Virus record (IMG/VR): IMGVR_UViG_3300009159_000424
Span: 1 to 20,225 of that record
Strand: one strand, 5' to 3'
DNA: 20,225 nucleotides
Origin: a virus
The position numbers and the translations under genes were made by a program. The notes beneath the pieces were generated by a model, which was given only the letters and a program-made list of their open reading frames with translations, made no database searches and was not told where the DNA came from. The first letter of the stretch is position 1, and every line of letters starts with the position of its first letter. Positions 1,496-15,023 of the stretch are shown here, one piece after another.

Positions 1496-1657
1496 ATGAA
1501 AAAAGTATTTTTAGCATTAGCCATTATGGCTTTAGTGGCAGTAAGTTGTAACCAGGTAACACCACCTGCAAAATTAACATCAGTAGATTCAACAACAGTA
1601 CAAGTCGATTCAATGAGTATCGATTCAACTACAGTAGATACTACAACTGTAAAATAA
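1496..1657 (+). CDS. Small lipoprotein with Val/Asp/Ser/Thr repeats
   Basis: 53 residues: MKKVFLALAIMALVAVSC is a lipoprotein signal with the lipobox cysteine at residue 18. The mature peptide is mostly repeats of the type VDSTTV (TSVDSTTVQVDSM, SIDSTTVDTTTV). It is likely anchored to the inner or outer membrane; the tail is extended and low in complexity. The start has the A-rich leader typical of Bacteroidota genes. The gene ends at the left edge of the long non-coding region. Function unknown; superinfection exclusion is a guess from size and location only. Confidence 0.72.
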   Translation: MKKVFLALAIMALVAVSCNQVTPPAKLTSVDSTTVQVDSMSIDSTTVDTTTVK

Positions 1658-2395
1658 AACACACCCCAGTAGATAGGTCCGCCAAGAAAGTCTTTAAACA
1701 ACGTGGGAACTGCGGCTCTCCCAATGTGGCTGGAATGTTTTATTAAAAATAGGTTAAACATTGAATACCTTTGTACATATTAACTGCTCGTCACAGGGTG
1801 GTCAATGTATTTACATAAAGATACTATCAGTAATGGTAGATGTGTTGTTCCCTTGAGAAAGGAATGAGAGATGGTTCGGTAAAGTGCAAGTCCCAACACA
1901 AATGAGTTCTCAGCAAGTAGTTAATGATAATAAGGCGAGGCTAATTGTAATGAAGAGCTGTTAACTACGTGACCCTACTCTCATAGCAGACCCCCGATTT
2001 GGCGGTCTTAAGGCCCATGAATTGGCATGGAGCTATAAGAAAGAGGGTGCTAAATAAAAACTAATGGGAAGTAGCATTGATAGTATGCATCTTTTAAAGA
2101 GTTGTCCCCTAGTGGGAGTGTACGGACAAAAAGTCAACATCCAAGGAAATCGTTATTGGGTGTCACACGTAGGTGGTAACGAACCTCGTATCTTGGTGTA
2201 ACAACACACCTTTAGTTTAAAACAAATTACCAATGCTCGCTGTTAATTAATGATGGTGCTAAACGGATGAAAAAGGGTTTATAGTAATCTAGAGTACAAG
2301 CAAATCATTAATCAGAAACCCTGCTCTTGTTAACTTCTGAAGTTCTGTTGAACACTAGGGAGCACTAATAAGAAAGACCAAGGTTGGTAAAAAAA
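1658..2395 (+). ncRNA. Very large structured RNA, GOLLD/ROOL-like candidate
   Basis: About 740 bases with no credible ORF but many exact long-range complementarities on the + strand: 1704-1708/1719-1723, 1734-1740/1756-1762, 1841-1847/1894-1900 (TGTGTTG/CAACACA), 1917-1924/1961-1968 (GTAGTTAA/TTAACTAC), 1972-1976/2044-2048 enclosing hairpins 1988-1992/2004-2008 and 2015-2019/2026-2030, 2102-2107/2124-2129, 2141-2145/2192-2196 enclosing 2150-2155/2177-2182, 2246-2254/2304-2312 (9 bp), 2274-2280/2316-2322 (7 bp), 2332-2336/2340-2344. A GAGA tetraloop closes CCTT/AAGG at 1851-1862. The pair 2246-2312 and 2274-2322 cross, forming a pseudoknot; 1865-1869/1908-1912 may cross the 1841 helix. GOLLD and ROOL are giant phage RNAs usually found beside tRNAs, which fits the place and size. 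Membership is inference from context; ends are approximate. Confidence 0.72.
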
Positions 2396-2396
2396 G

Positions 2397-2480
2397 AGTA
2401 GGTTGGTGTCAACGGGAAGTTCCTGCTAGGGCTAACATGGACGGTAAGTCTAGATAGGGGTTCGAATCCCCTACCTACTC
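2397..2480 (+). tRNA. tRNA-like element, long variable region, anticodon uncertain
   Basis: Acceptor strands AGTAGGT (2397-2403) and ACCTACT (2473-2479) pair perfectly. The T arm is canonical: AGGGG, loop TTCGAAT, CCCCT. Between them lie about 50 bases, as in type II tRNAs, and TGGAC/GTCTA (around 2438-2452) would serve as a variable arm. The D arm is too short and no normal anticodon arm can be drawn. The best candidate is AGTTC/GGGCT around a six-base loop CTGCTA, which would give GCT (Ser) with position 38 missing. It may be a decayed tRNA-Ser or a tRNA-like domain of the neighbouring giant RNA. Confidence 0.55.
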
Positions 2481-2486
2481 CAAACA

Positions 2487-2565
2487 GTCAGGTGGGCGTA
2501 ATGAGGAACGGTCTCCGAATCCATGAAATACTGGTTGCTTCTCCGGTTCGAGTCCGGCCCTGACG
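2487..2565 (+). tRNA. tRNA-like element, anticodon uncertain
   Basis: GTCAGG (2487-2492) pairs with CCTGAC (2559-2564), and CCGG-TTCGAGT-CCGG is a clear T arm with four good pairs. The D loop has a plausible GAGGAA segment. The anticodon arm is irregular: CCA/TGG closes an eight-base loop TGAAATAC, possibly reading GAA (Phe). A homing endonuclease gene starts 37 bases downstream. It could be a functional but divergent tRNA or a decayed one. Confidence 0.5.
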
Positions 2566-2583
2566 CTAATGTTTTTGAAATTT

Positions 2584-2604
2584 CATACTATTTATTAATG
2601 TATG
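2584..2604 (+). promoter_or_regulatory. Hairpin over the start codon of the first homing endonuclease
   Basis: CATAC (2584-2588) pairs with GTATG (2600-2604), which contains the ATG at 2602. ATT/AAT pairs continue inside, and CTATTTATTA (2588-2597) lies across the tip. Transcripts entering from upstream would hide the start codon. The same motif and design recur before the other two homing endonucleases (6473-6497 and 12288-12311). Confidence 0.5.
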
Positions 2605-3228
2605 GCAAATATAAATAAAAACAAACAGGTACATTTTTTGTATAAAAGTACAAATACGTTAAATGGAAACTACTATATTGGAATTCATTCTACAAACAAA
2701 ATAGACGATTCTTACATAGGAAGCGGAACGAGATTTAGAAAAGAGGTTGGAAAGTATGGTAAGCAGAATTTTAAGAGGGAGATTTTAGATTTTTTTAATT
2801 CAAGAGAAGATGCTTTAGCTGCTGAGTATAGGGTAGTTTCTGAAGTGATTTTAGATGTAAATTGTTTAAATTTATGTCAAGGGGGAAGAGTAGGAGGGCT
2901 TAACGAGGAAGCTCGTAGGTTAAGTAAAGAAAAAAGAGATTGGCTTAGAAAACACGATAAAGAGTGGAATAAGAAAGTAAGCACAAATGTAAGTACAGGA
3001 TTACGTATACATTACGAAAACAGGCCTGGAACCTTTACAGGAAGGACTCACAAATCAGAGAGTATTGAGAAAATCAAAGCAGCAGCTAAAAATAGAGGGA
3101 TAGGTAAAACAAACTCACAATACGGAACCTGCTGGATAACAAACGAGACAGAAAATAAAAAAATAAACAGAACAGACATAATCCCAGATGGATGGAGATT
3201 GGGAAGAGTAATAAGAAACAAGTATTAA
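2602..3228 (+). CDS. GIY-YIG homing endonuclease with NUMOD3 region
   Basis: 208 residues. The N-terminal GIY-YIG nuclease core is seen as FLY (12-14) and YYIG (24-27), followed by SYIGSGTRF, and a candidate catalytic Glu in LAAEYRVVSE (about 76). A NUMOD3-type DNA-binding segment (THKSESIEKIKAAAK) lies near 150. The C-terminal block QYGTCWI followed by IPDGWRLGR is typical of phage free-standing endonucleases. Such enzymes cut a specific site and spread their own gene by recombination. It is a paralogue of the product at 6505, sharing the same ends and layout. It sits just downstream of a tRNA-like element and has a start-codon hairpin. Confidence 0.9.
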   Translation: MANINKNKQVHFLYKSTNTLNGNYYIGIHSTNKIDDSYIGSGTRFRKEVGKYGKQNFKREILDFFNSREDALAAEYRVVSEVILDVNCLNLCQGGRVGGLNEEARRLSKEKRDWLRKHDKEWNKKVSTNVSTGLRIHYENRPGTFTGRTHKSESIEKIKAAAKNRGIGKTNSQYGTCWITNETENKKINRTDIIPDGWRLGRVIRNKY

Positions 3229-3305: not shown

Positions 3306-4991
3306 ATGAAAAAATTAATTTTGTTGCTAATTTTATTTATTGGATTTAATAGTAATTCTCAAACTGTTTGGAATGGAACTACTTGGTCACTAGGAGCTCC
3401 TAATGAGTTTATAGATGCCACACTTCAAGGAAATTATAATGGAGTTAGTTTTAAATGTTATAATCTTCTTATTGAAGCAGGAGCTATGTTAACAATACCT
3501 CCTTTTCTATATGTATCTGCAACTAATAATTTAACTGTTAATGGAACTTTAGGTTTATCAGACAGTGCTTCTTTTATACAGGTAAATGATTCAGGAACAG
3601 TTAGCGGTACAGGAACAATATTCTGTATTAGAAATACTACCCCAATGATTGCTAATGACTATACTTATTGGTCAAGTCCAATGGTAGATAGTACATTAGG
3701 TTCTAGTTTTAGTTCTTGGGTAACAGATAGAATATTTAAGTTTAATACAAGTAACTTCATTGATATTGAGACCACTTATAACGGTACTTATATCAATGCA
3801 TTTCCTGATGGTCAAGATGATAATGGTGATGCTTGGCAACCAATGGATCAAACAGACATAATGGTTCCAGGTATAGGATTTGCAGCCAAAGCATCAAGTG
3901 ATGTAACAACACCAACTATTTATGCTGCTACTTTTATAGGACAACCTAACAATGGAATAATTTCAGTTCCTTTAGTTATGAGTGGTAATCCATTAAGTAA
4001 TACAGATGATTTTAATCTTGTTGGAAATCCTTATTTAAGCTCTTGCTTTTCTGATAACCTTATCAACGCAAATCCAGATATTTCAGGAACTTTATATTTT
4101 TGGACACACACAACAGTAATTTCTCCAAGCAATTCAGGGATAAACATTTTAAATTTTACAAGCAATGATTACTCTAGATTAAATTTAACTGGAGGAACTA
4201 AGTCAGTAACTAACAGTGATAGACCAACTAGGTATATTGCTTCTTGTCAAGGCTATATGGTAAGAGCATTAAATCCTGGCACATTTACACATAACAATTC
4301 TTTAAGAAACGAGGGATATTCAAACGAAGATTTTCATAGAATAATAGTTCCAAAACAGTACTGGATTGCTCTAACTTATGAGGAGCAGTATTCAGAAGTA
4401 CTAATAGATTACAGAAGTAATACTTCGCTTGCAAATGATTACAGGTATGATGAAGAAAATGGAAATGGTAATACTTGGATTAGCCTTTATACTGTAAATG
4501 AAAATAATTATAAGATTGAATCTAGAGGTTCTTTCAATGATGATGATGCTATTCAATTAGGTTACAAAGCAAATGTTCCTGGTAATTTTACTTTATCATC
4601 AGATGGATTCACAAACTTTGAAGGATACAATTTAATATTATTTGATTCTCAATTTGGCACATTCCATAACTTGCAAACACCTTATACCTTTAATACAGAA
4701 ATAGGAACTTTTGATAATAGATTTACTTTAATGTATATAAACTCATTAAATAATCCAGAAAATGAATTACTACAAGTTAAACTATTCCCTAATCCATCAA
4801 GTGATATTGTAAATATTAATATTGACAATGTTAAAAATTTACAAGTATTAATATTTGATGTAACTGGAAAAATTGTTAAAACATTTTTAGAAACAAATAA
4901 GATCTATGTAGGCGATTTAGCTAATGGATTTTATTTAGTTAAATTAAAAAGTAACGAAAATACTAAAACATTTAAGTTTTACAAAAAATAA
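3306..4991 (+). CDS. Secreted protein with type IX secretion sorting domain
   Basis: 561 residues. Residues 1-19 (MKKLILLLILFIGFNSNSQ) are a Sec signal peptide. The last 75 or so residues form a type A T9SS C-terminal domain (Por secretion tail): VKLFPNPSSDIVNI, then VLIFDVTGKIV, and the final GFYLVKLKS...TFKFYKK strand. In Bacteroidota this domain sends cargo through the outer membrane for release or surface anchoring. The central part (VWNGTTWSLGAPN, DDFNLVGNPYLSS) resembles large flavobacterial cell-surface proteins and has no catalytic motif I can identify. It is followed 51 bases later by a lipoprotein gene, so the two may act together at the cell surface. A T9SS cargo in a phage is unusual and suggests acquisition from a host. 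ATATTTAT at 3283-3290 may be part of its promoter. Confidence 0.9.
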   Translation: MKKLILLLILFIGFNSNSQTVWNGTTWSLGAPNEFIDATLQGNYNGVSFKCYNLLIEAGAMLTIPPFLYVSATNNLTVNGTLGLSDSASFIQVNDSGTVSGTGTIFCIRNTTPMIANDYTYWSSPMVDSTLGSSFSSWVTDRIFKFNTSNFIDIETTYNGTYINAFPDGQDDNGDAWQPMDQTDIMVPGIGFAAKASSDVTTPTIYAATFIGQPNNGIISVPLVMSGNPLSNTDDFNLVGNPYLSSCFSDNLINANPDISGTLYFWTHTTVISPSNSGINILNFTSNDYSRLNLTGGTKSVTNSDRPTRYIASCQGYMVRALNPGTFTHNNSLRNEGYSNEDFHRIIVPKQYWIALTYEEQYSEVLIDYRSNTSLANDYRYDEENGNGNTWISLYTVNENNYKIESRGSFNDDDAIQLGYKANVPGNFTLSSDGFTNFEGYNLILFDSQFGTFHNLQTPYTFNTEIGTFDNRFTLMYINSLNNPENELLQVKLFPNPSSDIVNINIDNVKNLQVLIFDVTGKIVKTFLETNKIYVGDLANGFYLVKLKSNENTKTFKFYKK

Positions 4992-6364: not shown

Positions 6365-6452
6365 GGAGAGGTGGCAGAGTTGGTCGATTGCGCTAGTCTT
6401 GAAAACTAGAGATCCCTTAAAAGGTCCATGGGTTCGAATCCCATCCTCTCTT
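6365..6452 (+). tRNA. tRNA-Ser (anticodon TGA)
   Basis: Type II tRNA. The acceptor is GGAGAGG/CCTCTCT, with a G1-T72 wobble. The anticodon stem is CTAGT/ACTAG around loop CTTGAAA (anticodon TGA), followed by a long variable arm. The T arm is ATGGG-TTCGAAT-CCCAT. CCA is not encoded. A copy of the acceptor start, GGAGAG, recurs just after the gene at 6455-6460. An endonuclease gene follows. Confidence 0.93.
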
Positions 6453-6472
6453 CTGGAGAGCTGTTTTTGTAT

Positions 6473-6497
6473 TTCCTTGCTATTTATTAGAAAGGAA
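6473..6497 (+). promoter_or_regulatory. Hairpin hiding the ribosome site of the second homing endonuclease
   Basis: TTCCTT (6473-6478) pairs with AAGGAA (6492-6497). CTA/TAG pairs continue inside and the loop is TTTAT. The 3' arm contains the Shine-Dalgarno-like AAGGAA, 8-13 bases before the ATG at 6505. The tip carries CTATTTATTA (6480-6489), as in the other two homing endonuclease leaders. Confidence 0.55.
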
Positions 6498-6504
6498 GTA
6501 CATC

Positions 6505-7170
6505 ATGGCAAAGAAAGAATACGGTACAAGAAAAAAGTATCATTATATTTACAAAACAACTAATACGTTAAGTGGTAGGTATTATATAGGAATGCATTCG
6601 ACAGATAATCTTGAGGATGGTTATTTAGGATCTGGAACATACTTAAAAAGATCTATAAATAAACATGGAAAAGAAAATCATTTAATTGAGATTCTAGAAT
6701 TTTTAAATTCAAGAAGGGAATTAGCAGCAAGAGAAAAAAAAATAGTATCTCTTCAAGAAATTGCTAAAAAACAATGCATGAATCTAAAAGTTGGAGGAGA
6801 AGGAGGCTTCACAGAAGAAAATAAAATAAAGGGAAGAGTAGCAGCAAATATAGCAAGGGCACTACTCCTACAGACAGATCCTGAATTTAAAGAAAAATAC
6901 TGCAAAGCAATTAGGGAAGGTCAGAAAAGGGCAAAAGAAAGAGGAGTAAAATTTAATAACATATCACAATGCTATTCCTGGAAAGGCAAGAAACATAAAC
7001 CTGAAACTCTTGAAAAAATGAGAAATACTAGAAAAGAAAAAGATTTAGGAAAAGGAGCTGATAATTCTCAATATGGGACTTGTTGGATTACAGACGAAAC
7101 AGAAAGTAGGAAAATGGACAAAGGAGATCTAATCCCAGAAGGATGGAGATTAGGAAGAAAAATAAAATAA
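6505..7170 (+). CDS. GIY-YIG homing endonuclease, paralogue of the gene at 2602
   Basis: 221 residues. The GIY-YIG core reads YIY (14-16) and YYIG (26-29), with GYLGSGTYL after it; a candidate catalytic Glu lies in AAREKKIVS. A NUMOD3-like segment (KHKPETLEKMRNTRKEK) follows, and the C-terminal block is QYGTCWITDE...IPEGWRLGR. It is clearly related to the product at 2602 from end to end. The gene interrupts the tRNA array, lying between tRNA-Ser and tRNA-Glu, and is expected to be selfish. The better start is 6505: an overlapping frame opening at 6363 lies inside tRNA-Ser and is not a gene. Confidence 0.92.
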   Translation: MAKKEYGTRKKYHYIYKTTNTLSGRYYIGMHSTDNLEDGYLGSGTYLKRSINKHGKENHLIEILEFLNSRRELAAREKKIVSLQEIAKKQCMNLKVGGEGGFTEENKIKGRVAANIARALLLQTDPEFKEKYCKAIREGQKRAKERGVKFNNISQCYSWKGKKHKPETLEKMRNTRKEKDLGKGADNSQYGTCWITDETESRKMDKGDLIPEGWRLGRKIK

Positions 7171-7218
7171 GGGTGTGTGGGAACCCAAGAATATGTGATG
7201 AGCATATACCCATAATCT

Positions 7219-7289
7219 GGCCCGTTCGTCTAAAGGCAGGACATTTGGTTTTCGACCAAAGAAAGACGGATCGTTACCGTCACGGGCTA
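7219..7289 (+). tRNA. tRNA-Glu (anticodon TTC)
   Basis: Acceptor GGCCCGT/ACGGGCT (G1-T72 wobble), D arm GTCTAAAGGCAGGAC, anticodon stem TTTGG/CCAAA with loop TTTTCGA (TTC), T stem GACGG/CCGTC. The T loop is ATCGTTA, so position 54 is A rather than T, which is unusual. CCA is not encoded. Confidence 0.88.
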
Positions 7290-7295
7290 CAATAA

Positions 7296-7367
7296 GGGGC
7301 TATAGTATAACGGCTATTACAATGGTTTTGCAAATCATAAATTGGAGTTCGATTCTCCATAGCTCCA
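7296..7367 (+). tRNA. tRNA-Ala (anticodon TGC)
   Basis: Acceptor GGGGCTA/TAGCTCC, anticodon stem ATGGT/ATCAT with loop TTTGCAA (TGC), T arm TGGAG-TTCGATT-CTCCA, discriminator A. It follows tRNA-Glu after six bases. Confidence 0.93.
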
Positions 7368-7372
7368 CAAAA

Positions 7373-7436
7373 TCGACTATAAGAGGATTGACCAATGAGG
7401 CTAATTGGTAAGTAGTTGACAGCCTGGAAAGACAGG
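7373..7436 (+). other. Structured spacer in the tRNA array
   Basis: TCGACTA (7373-7379) pairs with TAGTTGA (7413-7419) and encloses CCAAT/ATTGG (7392-7396/7404-7408); CCTG/CAGG (7423-7426/7433-7436) follows. There is no T arm and no anticodon arm, so it is not a tRNA as it stands. It may be a decayed tRNA or a processing element. Confidence 0.4.
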
Positions 7437-7442
7437 TAATTT

Positions 7443-7514
7443 GGTCTATTTGTGTAATGGTAGCAGTACTGGCTTGTCACGTCAGAGGCGAGAGTTCGAT
7501 TCTCTCATAGACCG
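7443..7514 (+). tRNA. tRNA-Asp (anticodon GTC)
   Basis: Acceptor GGTCTAT/ATAGACC, anticodon stem CTGGC/GTCAG with loop TTGTCAC (GTC), T arm GAGAG-TTCGATT-CTCTC, discriminator G as expected for Asp. Confidence 0.94.
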
Positions 7515-7518
7515 CAAA

Positions 7519-7561
7519 CCTTGGGAGTAATTAACCTAAGGCTGAGAGGTTCGAAACTCTC
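7519..7561 (+). other. tRNA-like fragment (T-arm-like hairpin)
   Basis: CCTTGGG/CCTAAGG (7519-7525/7535-7541) forms one hairpin and GAGAG/CTCTC (7544-7548/7557-7561) a second, whose eight-base loop GTTCGAAA resembles a T loop. No matching acceptor strand is found. Probably the remains of a tRNA. Confidence 0.4.
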
Positions 7562-7565
7562 GGAA

Positions 7566-7643
7566 TGATTATGGTGTAAGGGTGCACACCACCTCTGAAT
7601 CTAAAGGAGGTAGGGGTTTAAGGTTCGACTCCTTATTAATCAG
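7566..7643 (+). tRNA. Divergent tRNA-like gene, possible Arg (TCT)
   Basis: TGATTAT pairs with TTAATCA except at position 7:66. The T arm TAAGG-TTCGACT-CCTTA is perfect, and GTGT/GCAC can form a D stem. The anticodon stem ACCTCT/GGAGGT leaves a nine-base loop GAATCTAAA with TCT at its centre. Read as a seven-base loop, the stem ends in a G-A mismatch and position 33 is A instead of the nearly universal T. Possibly tRNA-Arg, possibly non-functional. Confidence 0.5.
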
Positions 7644-7652
7644 CTAATAAAC

Positions 7653-7725
7653 TGCGTTAAAGTGTAAAGGTTGCATCCTAGTCTCATAAGCTAGGGGGGT
7701 GGTTCGAGTCCACGTTACGCTACCA
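7653..7725 (+). tRNA. tRNA with CAT anticodon, probably Met
   Basis: Anticodon stem CTAGT/GCTAG with loop CTCATAA (CAT); T loop TTCGAGT with GTGG/CCAC; the 3' end encodes ACCA, the only encoded CCA in the array. The acceptor (TGCGTTA/TTACGCT) has mismatches at 1:72 and 6:67. A 1:72 mismatch recalls initiator tRNAs, but the anticodon stem lacks their three G-C pairs, so elongator Met is more likely. Confidence 0.75.
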
Positions 7726-7797
7726 GGCCTTGTAGCTCAAAGGAGGAGCAGTTCGCTCATAACGAAAAGGTTGGGATATCATAATTCCCCAAGGCCA
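7726..7797 (+). tRNA. tRNA with CAT anticodon, probably Ile (lysidine type)
   Basis: Acceptor GGCCTTG/CAAGGCC is perfect, D stem GCTC/GAGC, anticodon loop CTCATAA (CAT), discriminator A. The GGCC...GGCCA ends resemble bacterial tRNA-Ile whose CAT is changed to read AUA. The T loop is irregular (ATCATAA). It starts on the base right after the CCA of the preceding tRNA, so one cut would define both ends. Confidence 0.75.
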
Positions 7798-11621: not shown

Positions 11622-11885
11622 ATGTTAAACACAAGAGTAGAAGACAACCACTTTAATGAAGATGGTTCATTAATATCGTCACGGATTATAATTGAGGTTC
11701 CATTATCTCACGAAATGTTACAAGATTGTTATTCGTATACAGCAATGGATGCACCATCTGAAATTAAAAGAATGTTGATGGAATTTCTTGGTGATACAAT
11801 TGATGAAATCATTTTAGGTAAAAGACCTGATAATGTTGATGAACAATGGTTAAGAAGAAAACTAATAGAAGTAAAAGTAATATGA
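11622..11885 (+). CDS. Hypothetical protein between phosphoesterase and kinase
   Basis: 87 residues, acidic. The middle (EVPLSHEMLQDCYSYTA) and a helical C-terminus (EIKRMLMEFLGDTIDEIIL) show no known motif. It starts one base after the phosphoesterase stop, and its stop overlaps the kinase start (ATGA at 11882-11885), so translation is likely coupled and the product may work with them. Confidence 0.75.
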   Translation: MLNTRVEDNHFNEDGSLISSRIIIEVPLSHEMLQDCYSYTAMDAPSEIKRMLMEFLGDTIDEIILGKRPDNVDEQWLRRKLIEVKVI

Positions 11886-12283
11886 AGGAACTTTATCTAT
11901 TAAGAGGATTACCTGGATCAGGAAAATCAACATTAGCAAAATCAATAGGTGGAATGCATGTAGAAGCAGATATGTTTTTTATGGAACCATCCTTAGAATT
12001 TAGGACAGTACATACTTATAAGTTTGATCCTTCTAAATTAAAAGAAGCACATGCTTGGTGTCAAAAGACAGTTGAAGTATGTATGCTTAGGGATTTAAAA
12101 GTTGTAGTATCAAACACATTCACTCAGGAATGGGAAATGCAACCATACTATGATCTAGCAGAAAAGTACGGATACAGAGTTTATTCTTTAATTGTAGAAA
12201 ACATCCACAACGGAAAAAGCATTCATAACGTTCCAGAAGAAAGCATTAATAAAATGAGGGACAGGTTTATCGTTCGTTTATAG
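11882..12283 (+). CDS. P-loop polynucleotide-kinase-like protein (AAA_33 type)
   Basis: 133 residues from the ATG at 11882, which overlaps the previous stop; a longer reading from 11846 would overlap more and adds only a basic stretch. The Walker A motif is GLPGSGKST (9-17). VEADMFF (Asp30) supplies the Asp expected near the substrate, then VVVSNTFTQ and the HNVPEE segment common to this kinase family. It is the kinase domain only, with no 3' phosphatase domain of the T4 Pnkp kind. A role in phosphorylating 5' ends of broken RNA fits its neighbours. Other phosphotransfer on small substrates is possible. Confidence 0.85.
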   Translation: MKELYLLRGLPGSGKSTLAKSIGGMHVEADMFFMEPSLEFRTVHTYKFDPSKLKEAHAWCQKTVEVCMLRDLKVVVSNTFTQEWEMQPYYDLAEKYGYRVYSLIVENIHNGKSIHNVPEESINKMRDRFIVRL

Positions 12284-13899: not shown

Positions 13900-14223
13900 A
13901 TGGAAAACAATAATTCAGTTTGCTTCATAGCAAAAATAAACGAAGTAAAAGCAATCGAAGGAGCTGACAACATCGAACAAGCAGTTATCGGAGGATGGAA
14001 TACGATTGTAAAAAAAGGAACACATCATGCAGGACAACTAGTAATAGTAGCAACTACTGATGCAGTTATCCCTGTAGAACTTTCTGACAAGTTTGGTGTA
14101 ACTAACTACCTAAGAAAAGGACAAAGAGTTAGAACTGTAAAACTAAGAGGAGTTTATTCTGAATGCTTAGTAATACCAATCACTCCTGACATGAGATTAA
14201 CTACTCAGAGGGTCAAGACATGA
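13900..14223 (+). CDS. N-terminal OB-fold part of a DraRnl-type RNA ligase (separate frame)
   Basis: 107 residues resembling the N-terminal OB domain of Deinococcus-type (Rnl5) RNA ligases: FIAKINEVKAIEGADNIEQ, GWNTIVKKGTHHAGQLVIV, then VRTVKLRGVYSECLVIP. In that family this domain precedes the nucleotidyltransferase on one chain. Here it ends in its own TGA, overlapping the ATG of the next gene (ATGA at 14220-14223). The last 11 or so residues (DMRLTTQRVKT) do not look like the family, while the -1 frame does. So this is either a coupled two-gene enzyme, a frameshifted gene or a sequence error. Confidence 0.8.
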   Translation: MENNNSVCFIAKINEVKAIEGADNIEQAVIGGWNTIVKKGTHHAGQLVIVATTDAVIPVELSDKFGVTNYLRKGQRVRTVKLRGVYSECLVIPITPDMRLTTQRVKT

Positions 14224-15023
14224 TGGTAAAACTTGGTATTGTGAAATACGAACCACCAGTTAAACAAATCCAACTTGCCTCAGGTAGAAAGATTAAGTGG
14301 AGAGACAATCAAAACTTCCACATCTACTACAAATTCCCAAACCTTAAAAACGTTGAAGGAATGTTTACAGAAGAAGATGAAGTTCAAATCACTAGAAAGA
14401 TTCACGGTACAAATGCTAGATACGGTATTGTAAAGAAAAGTAAATTAACATTCTGGGATAAAGTAAAAAAATTCTTAAGAATTGCTGATGAGTGGATTGA
14501 CTACGAATACATTTATGGTTCACATAATTGTGAGAAAGGAAGTGACTCTCAAGGATTCTATTCAACTGACGTTTGGAGAACAATTGCTGAAAAGTATGAT
14601 ATCAAAGCAAAGCTTCTAGAAGGAGCAAAGTGTAGAGGTGTAGAGAATTTAGGAGCAGGAATTATCCTTTATGGAGAAATTTATGGAGCTGGTATTCAAA
14701 AGAACTATGAATATGGTTTAAAAGATATTGAGTTTGCAGGTTTTGATATTAAGATAGATGGAGAATACCTAGCATCAGAAACAACAGAAATCCTAATCAC
14801 AGAGTTATTCAAACTTCCTCATGTACAAGTTCTCTATAATGGAATTTGGAATCAAGAAATTCAAGATAATTATATATTCAACAACTTCATTCCAGGGACT
14901 AAAACTCCTCACGAGGGAATAGTTATAAAGCACATATCTGGAGATCGTAAAAAGGTAGCAAAGGTAATCAATCCTGAATATTTAATTGCATCAGAGAAGC
15001 ACGATTATGGCGACAGCCACTAG
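14220..15023 (+). CDS. RNA ligase, nucleotidyltransferase domain
   Basis: 267 residues. LGIVKYEPP (5-13) is the family's entry motif. Motif I is KIHGTN (Lys60, the AMP acceptor), followed by LYGEIYGAG (150-158, motif III), FAGFDIKIDGEYL (172-184, IIIa), EGIVIK (232-237, IV) and KKVAKVI (244-250, V). The catalytic set is complete. The enzyme seals 3'-OH/5'-phosphate breaks in RNA. The frame is open upstream of the ATG back to 14190 and reads NYSEGQD, which suits the family linker, so the ORF may once have been joined to the OB-domain frame. Together with kinase, phosphoesterase and cREC genes it suggests tRNA repair. Confidence 0.9.
   Translation: MMVKLGIVKYEPPVKQIQLASGRKIKWRDNQNFHIYYKFPNLKNVEGMFTEEDEVQITRKIHGTNARYGIVKKSKLTFWDKVKKFLRIADEWIDYEYIYGSHNCEKGSDSQGFYSTDVWRTIAEKYDIKAKLLEGAKCRGVENLGAGIILYGEIYGAGIQKNYEYGLKDIEFAGFDIKIDGEYLASETTEILITELFKLPHVQVLYNGIWNQEIQDNYIFNNFIPGTKTPHEGIVIKHISGDRKKVAKVINPEYLIASEKHDYGDSH

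Follow-up and report, generated by a model that had tools for sequence, protein, structure and literature searches.

Two modular folded RNAs beside phage tRNA genes, almost certainly new families

A stretch of about 740 bases in a phage genome, which the earlier note had taken for one giant structured RNA related to GOLLD or ROOL, appears on locus comparison to be a row of separate folded RNAs and no single giant RNA (positions 1658-2395). Two of these elements, here called A and B, almost certainly represent new RNA families. Comparison between phages shows both to be conserved, structured, single-copy and non-coding, with exchangeable peripheral hairpins; together they occur in more than 100 phage contigs, with compensatory changes. 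The data support a view of A and B as independent units that act in trans and often lie in stable-RNA arrays. Our overall reading, to which we give a probability of about 0.5, is that they would be trans-acting modular RNAs belonging to the stable-RNA array of a virulent Bacteroidota phage.

Results

Layout of the array

The window is the whole stretch of DNA analysed, 20,225 nucleotides of IMG/VR record IMGVR_UViG_3300009159_000424. It comes from an immuto-like phage, and its endolysin is 61.6% identical to that of its relative, Flavobacterium phage immuto. The earlier note rightly placed a structured RNA, non-coding and beside tRNA-like genes, in a flavobacterial phage, and the covariation found in A and B agrees with it. 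Elsewhere in the window, a QueC-like gene lies at the left edge (1-585), as in immuto, and a phage gene at 3306-4991 encodes PF18962, the C-terminal sorting domain of the Por secretion system, which secreted Bacteroidota proteins also have. Two GIY-YIG homing endonuclease genes are present, one after the RNA array (2602-3228) and one inside a tRNA cluster at 6365-7797 (6505-7170). A polynucleotide-kinase-like ATPase (11846-12283) and an RNA ligase (14220-15023) are possibly a tRNA repair set. The array itself reads as follows.

1655-1742, plus strand: C, a conserved non-coding element of about 88 bases, defined by comparison
1748-2053, plus strand: A, the whole RNA unit of 306 bases, with ends set by the C-D junction in loci L151 and L177
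2054-2224, plus strand: D, a conserved non-coding stretch, found at 98.9% identity in no loci but L151 and L177
2227-2390, plus strand: B, a pseudoknotted RNA with closing stem TTACCAA (2227-2233) / TTGGTAA (2384-2390), identified by a 17-mer in 51 contigs and aligned in 41 distinct copies
2396-2482, plus strand: tRNA-like gene 1, with acceptor stem and T arm, lacking a normal anticodon arm; relatives lie behind most B copies
2487-2566, plus strand: tRNA-like gene 2, from sequence reading and fold; relatives 81-85% identical lie beside A or B loci

Locus comparison separates at least four elements with their own distributions within 1658-2395. The relative L177 has the order C-D-B and lacks A between C and D, which marks A as a discrete unit; the direct joining of C to D in L151 and L177 fixes its ends. 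About 25 IMG/VR contigs match C at 98-100% identity; in L052 the identity is 75%. Relatives carry C-B or C-D-B, and in many C stands directly before B. A occurs without B in Cellulophaga phage phi14:2 and B without A in immuto, where the A core pattern had no match in the genome and B precedes a gene annotated as tRNA-Cys. Elsewhere B comes before A, directly so in L028, L033, L130 and L157. A further element, E (CTACTTGAGTA...GTGGTCAATCAACA...), is absent from the window and adjoins A or B in other phages, with 16 copies in the loci analysed (among them L018, L048, L130, L150 and L186); its stem looks compensated (GTGGG/CCCAC, GGCGC/GCGTT).

The stretch had been described as free of reading frames and rich in complementary segments. 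The first observation stands: positions 1762 to 2601 contain no open reading frame of at least 50 amino acids, and A is not crossed by a conserved protein frame, its longest stop-free frame having a median of 53 codons. The complementary segments are present, yet only moderately in excess of dinucleotide shuffles. There are 23 exact segments of at least 7 bases against 14.7 +/- 3.6 (a count reached by 1 of 30 shuffles), 7 of at least 8 bases against 4.3, and 3 of at least 9 bases against 1.1, the last two counts each being reached by 4 of 30 shuffles. By itself, this count is no distinctive mark. Fold energy was not better than that of shuffles for 1655-2400 (z +0.35) and was uninformative for A (z -0.33) and B (z -0.70) singly. 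With complement counts only modestly raised and fold energy at chance level, the single sequence would not be enough; it is comparison that proves structure.

Structure of A

Covariation was judged against a null in which the columns were simulated one by one along a FastTree tree, each keeping its observed count of changes (500 simulations). Slid registers served as controls and stood out less than the true P4, PE and P3. The trees were built from short, recombining sequences, and the null is to be read as a guard against relatedness that yields no exact P value. Beyond this tree-aware null P3, P4 and PE of A and X and Y of B vary together, as the covariation check proposed in the earlier note had asked. 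The parts of A are these.

1751-1770, plus strand: hairpin P1 (1751-1754/1767-1770), loop AAACATTGA at 1756-1764; stem of at least 4 bp in 68 of 86 copies
1773-1810, plus strand: variable module V1 in helix P2 (1773-1778/1805-1810), from sequence reading; V1 also in L087
1824-1839, plus strand: hairpin P3, CTATC (1824-1828) / GGTAG (1835-1839), loop AGTAAT; covariation
1841-1900, plus strand: helix P4 (1841-1847/1894-1900), around PE and variable module V2; covariation
1848-1864, plus strand: hairpin PE, TTCC (1848-1851) / GGAA (1861-1864), loop CTTGAGAAA at 1852-1860; covariation
1854-1912, plus strand: proposed pseudoknot of TGAGAA (1854-1859) with TTCTCA (1907-1912)
1901-1917, plus strand: near-invariant core AATGAGTTCTCAGCAAG, part of an exact 22-mer in 74 viral contigs
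1917-1968, plus strand: helix P5 (1917-1923/1962-1968) with variable module V3; pairing
1969-2053, plus strand: GTGACCC and helix P6 (1973-1975/2045-2047, 1980-1987/2032-2039) with variable module V4 and the 3' end GGGTGCTAA, from sequence reading

Three helices covary at levels that 0 of 500 simulations reached: P4 (1.394; null maximum 0.613), P3 (1.375; null maximum 1.039) and PE (1.271; null maximum 0.555), the last being 94% paired. P4 has 13 compensatory branch events and changes from TGTGTTG/CAACACA to ACGTGAG/CTCACGT, CATGCAG/CTGCATG, TATATTA/TAATATA and others, and PE varies likewise. P5 is 92% paired against 78% under the null (0/500), with covariation at 31/500, and is missing as a clean whole-helix deletion in L120, L124, L125, L129 and L134. 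The count of P1 stems given above compares with a mean of 49 and a maximum of 57 after the 3' flanks were re-dealt. The PE loop (UGAGAA) would form a pseudoknot with the core (UUCUCA); this pairing is possible in 98.7% of cells and near-invariant, so covariation is uninformative for it. The CUC..GAAAGA loop of P6 is present in 44 of 86 copies.

Two other ideas concerned the conserved parts of A. Their loops have one 9-base match each to E. coli 5S and 23S rRNA, about as many as expected over all tests, and complementarity to rRNA was rejected as not significant. TACCTTTG at the 5' side was considered as a Bacteroidetes promoter and dropped, as P1 variants lose TACCTTTG and retain the stem.

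Distribution and neighbours of A

Conserved segments are confined to about -290 to +220 of the A core in 75 loci, and shared k-mers bound A from the P1 loop (TAAACATTGA) to GGGTGCTAA. The exact 22-mer of the core, with its 74 IMG/VR contigs, spans 1902-1923. Two additional anchors occur in 68 and 44 contigs. Two exact anchors (a 23-mer and a 19-mer) were found in 0 of 84,980 bacterial and archaeal genomes by exact matching, to which diverged copies would be invisible. BLAST placed conserved A blocks in Cellulophaga phage phi14:2 (Crassvirales), where A lies outside any gene; in phi4:1 and phi17:2 the P6 piece alone remains, at the same gene boundary. Some carriers have a T4-type gp23 capsid gene, with genomes of up to 373 kb, and others, such as phi14:2, have none. 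A was present once per record in all 23 records with a match.

Every tRNA or tmRNA gene within about 1 kb of A (27/27) lies on its strand. Directly 3' of A stands a tmRNA in 15 of 99 loci and an open reading frame as first feature in 47; B or a tRNA comes next in others. In 12 of 35 records, phage-encoded tmRNA genes (L002 4030-4500 and many A loci) pass the Rfam threshold; matches to a looser tmRNA pattern proved unreliable and were set aside. The next protein genes fall into 57 clusters among 72 and are unrelated between phages, with no one gene family downstream across genomes. A is therefore not cis-regulatory. A leader or riboswitch acting on the next gene, suggested by the intergenic position of A, usually on the coding strand, was rejected as scarcely credible, since it is largely refuted by these unrelated downstream frames, and RNA genes often follow A instead.

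Structure and neighbours of B

B was aligned by motif in 41 distinct copies, all of which have TTACCAATGCTCGCTGTTA, AAAGGGTT and GAAAGAC with few changes. An exact 17-mer of its 5' core occurs in 51 IMG/VR contigs; a 20-base piece of B used as an IMG/VR query found 2 contigs only. B was present once per record in 11 of 11 records with a match. Its internal helices are the following.

2246-2312, plus strand: helix X, 2246-2254 (ATTAATGAT) / 2304-2312 (ATCATTAAT); covariation in both sequence classes
2274-2322, plus strand: helix Y, 2274-2280 (AGGGTTT) / 2316-2322 (AAACCCT), crossing X; coupled variants
2324-2378, plus strand: exchangeable tip helix, with a CUC..GAAAGA joint in common with A; tip ACAAGCTCCGTAACTGATAACTCGGTAAGCT in both

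Helix X is 100% paired in class 1, with covariation at 1/500, and reaches 0/500 in class 2. Helix Y has the coupled variants GGGTTT/AAACCC or GGGTTA/TAACCC, and its covariation is 1/500 over all copies, 0/500 in class 2 alone and 80/500 in class 1 alone. Both helices are present exactly as first described; they cross, and both covary, which confirms the pseudoknot proposed from the single sequence.

About 31 of 41 copies of B have a tRNA or tRNA-like gene behind them, and the gap is a few bases in nearly every case. In predicted folds of 26 such tRNA-like relatives, the acceptor stem is mostly 8 bp and a T arm is present, while hairpins occupy the D region and replace the normal anticodon arm. 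ARAGORN names these genes inconsistently, and the Rfam tRNA model did not score the two in the window. In L047 and L111, a B-like pseudoknot (AAGGGTTT ... CAGAAACCC GAAAGACCC) is nested inside the P5 helix of A.

Exchange of hairpins

The variable modules of A sit in P2 (V1), inside P4 (V2), in P5 (V3) and in P6 (V4). Among 133 locus pairs with a common hairpin module at one A site, 125 differ at another site, and the four peripheral hairpins have thus been swapped independently from phage to phage. V1 and V2 of the window are seen again in L087 and L025. Three modules were found at different sites in different phages, and the tip ACAAGCTCCGTAACTGATAACTCGGTAAGCT is common to B and to the P6 of A in other phages, behind the CUC..GAAAGA joint. 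Recombination at the conserved segments would explain exchange at the same site. Swaps between sites and between families require something beyond such recombination.

Comparison with known RNA families

No Rfam 15 family scored above its own gathering score in the stretch of the array, searched up to E<=10, in line with the suggestion of an undescribed family. Membership of GOLLD or ROOL did not hold up. The GOLLD model (RF02032; a member was to exceed 150 bits) had no match in 1450-2700 at E<=10, and the ROOL covariance model had none there at E<=10 or in the related loci scanned. Ten related loci yielded only tRNA, tmRNA, one permuted tmRNA (L012) and one true GOLLD. This last (292 bits; L124, also G034, IMGVR_UViG_3300046787_000353) is the only GOLLD among 35 records and stands at a site distinct from A, about 3.5 kb away in the same tRNA array. 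Since GOLLD and A are both present in one tRNA array of one phage, A is not GOLLD. Besides GOLLD and A, that array contains tmRNA and about 30 genes for tRNAs.

The elements of the window nevertheless share with GOLLD a phage location near tRNA genes. GOLLD is a phage RNA of tRNA islands with a conserved and a variable part and pseudoknots (PMC12286853), features that A resembles. GOLLD is also found in prophages, whereas the two exact anchors of A are absent from cellular genomes. ROOL is a phage and prophage RNA of unknown function, often near tRNA islands (PMC12286853), as are A and B; they measure about 300 and 165 bases, compared with 659 for one described ROOL. tmRNA is pseudoknotted like A and is often the next gene after it, but A has neither a tRNA-like domain nor a tag frame, and the tmRNA is a separate downstream gene. 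The tmRNA model did not match over a whole element; its sole hit, of 13.2 bits, was a T-arm piece of 17 bases (2456-2472) within a tRNA-like gene.

The tRNA cluster of phage T4 encodes two small stable RNAs, RNA C and RNA D, whose role is unknown. A and B can be likened to them, by description and not by sequence, as small RNAs beside phage tRNA genes. We know of no exchange of hairpin modules in T4 RNA C or RNA D.

Discussion

How might A and B work? We propose that they are two separate compact pseudoknotted RNAs that share their coding strand with tRNA, tRNA-like or tmRNA genes, and that they are probably excised from a common precursor. The fixed core of A would consist of the loops of P1, P3 and PE together with AAUGAGUUCUCAGCAAG, and most likely gives A one unchanging surface for binding a conserved partner in the host's translation or RNA turnover. 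The comparison of sequences shows that the four peripheral helices of A and the tip of B are sockets for hairpins swapped between phages. These hairpins presumably adjust the stability or packing of the RNA or help it to evade host nucleases. Both RNAs would act in trans during lytic infection, with the phage tRNAs and tmRNA. That their function lies in the take-over of translation is a tentative suggestion, which we hold at below even odds.

Could A and B instead be processing or self-cleaving elements, with B freeing the 5' end of the tRNA-like gene and A that of the tmRNA? B is a compact pseudoknot, and in most copies only a few bases separate it from the tRNA or tRNA-like gene on its 3' side; A is often just 5' of a tmRNA. 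However, protein genes often follow A, A itself comes directly after B in four loci, and known ribozyme models gave no match. We consider this reading unlikely.

It is improbable that C, A, D and B form one RNA of about 740 bases that self-assembles into a cage like GOLLD or ROOL. The parts are contiguous, on one strand and next to tRNA-like genes, and their niche is that of GOLLD, as the array with both A and a true GOLLD illustrates. In other phages, however, the elements occur singly, in other orders or nested, with A alone in phi14:2, B alone in immuto, B before A, and a B-like fold within P5, and the GOLLD and ROOL models found no match at E<=10. The claim of a single large RNA is not borne out.

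We think it very improbable that A is what remains of a mobile element or of an intron that splices itself. Its clean presence or absence between C and D would suit such an origin, as would the two GIY-YIG endonuclease genes nearby. Against this, A is single-copy in each genome and in phi14:2 lies outside any gene, and among group I and II intron models the only match was a 13-bit group-II fragment (E 9.1; gathering score 36).

Trans-acting modular RNAs of a phage array remain our preferred reading of A and B. Two results tell against it: in nearly half of the A loci (47 of 99) an open reading frame is the first feature downstream, and the conserved loops have no significant complementarity to E. 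coli rRNA. In the literature searched, with subscription papers outside the search, we found no description of the A and B elements or of hairpin exchange between sockets. The compensatory changes in A and B beyond the phylogenetic null argue for new families; as orphan folded RNAs encoded in phage tRNA islands, however, they belong to a broad kind of which GOLLD and ROOL are known examples (PMC12286853). A bolder version is rather unlikely in our estimate: A and B would found a new phage RNA machine, with a constant pseudoknotted core and sockets for interchangeable hairpin cassettes that move from one site or RNA family to another and perhaps also to the D loop of tRNA-like genes; on the host ribosome, this machine would work together with the tRNAs and tmRNA of the phage.

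What would such RNAs mean for phage biology? GOLLD and ROOL established that large folded RNAs without a known role are encoded by phages, and two further, unrelated families would make this phenomenon broader. The new families span T4-like, jumbo and crAss-like phages and have numerous carriers among the viruses of Bacteroidota-type bacteria. A is small and single-copy and is present in the cultured Cellulophaga phage phi14:2, which makes its expression, structure and knock-out directly testable. Finally, RNA evolution in which entire hairpins are traded among defined sockets would be a mode undescribed in the literature that we searched.
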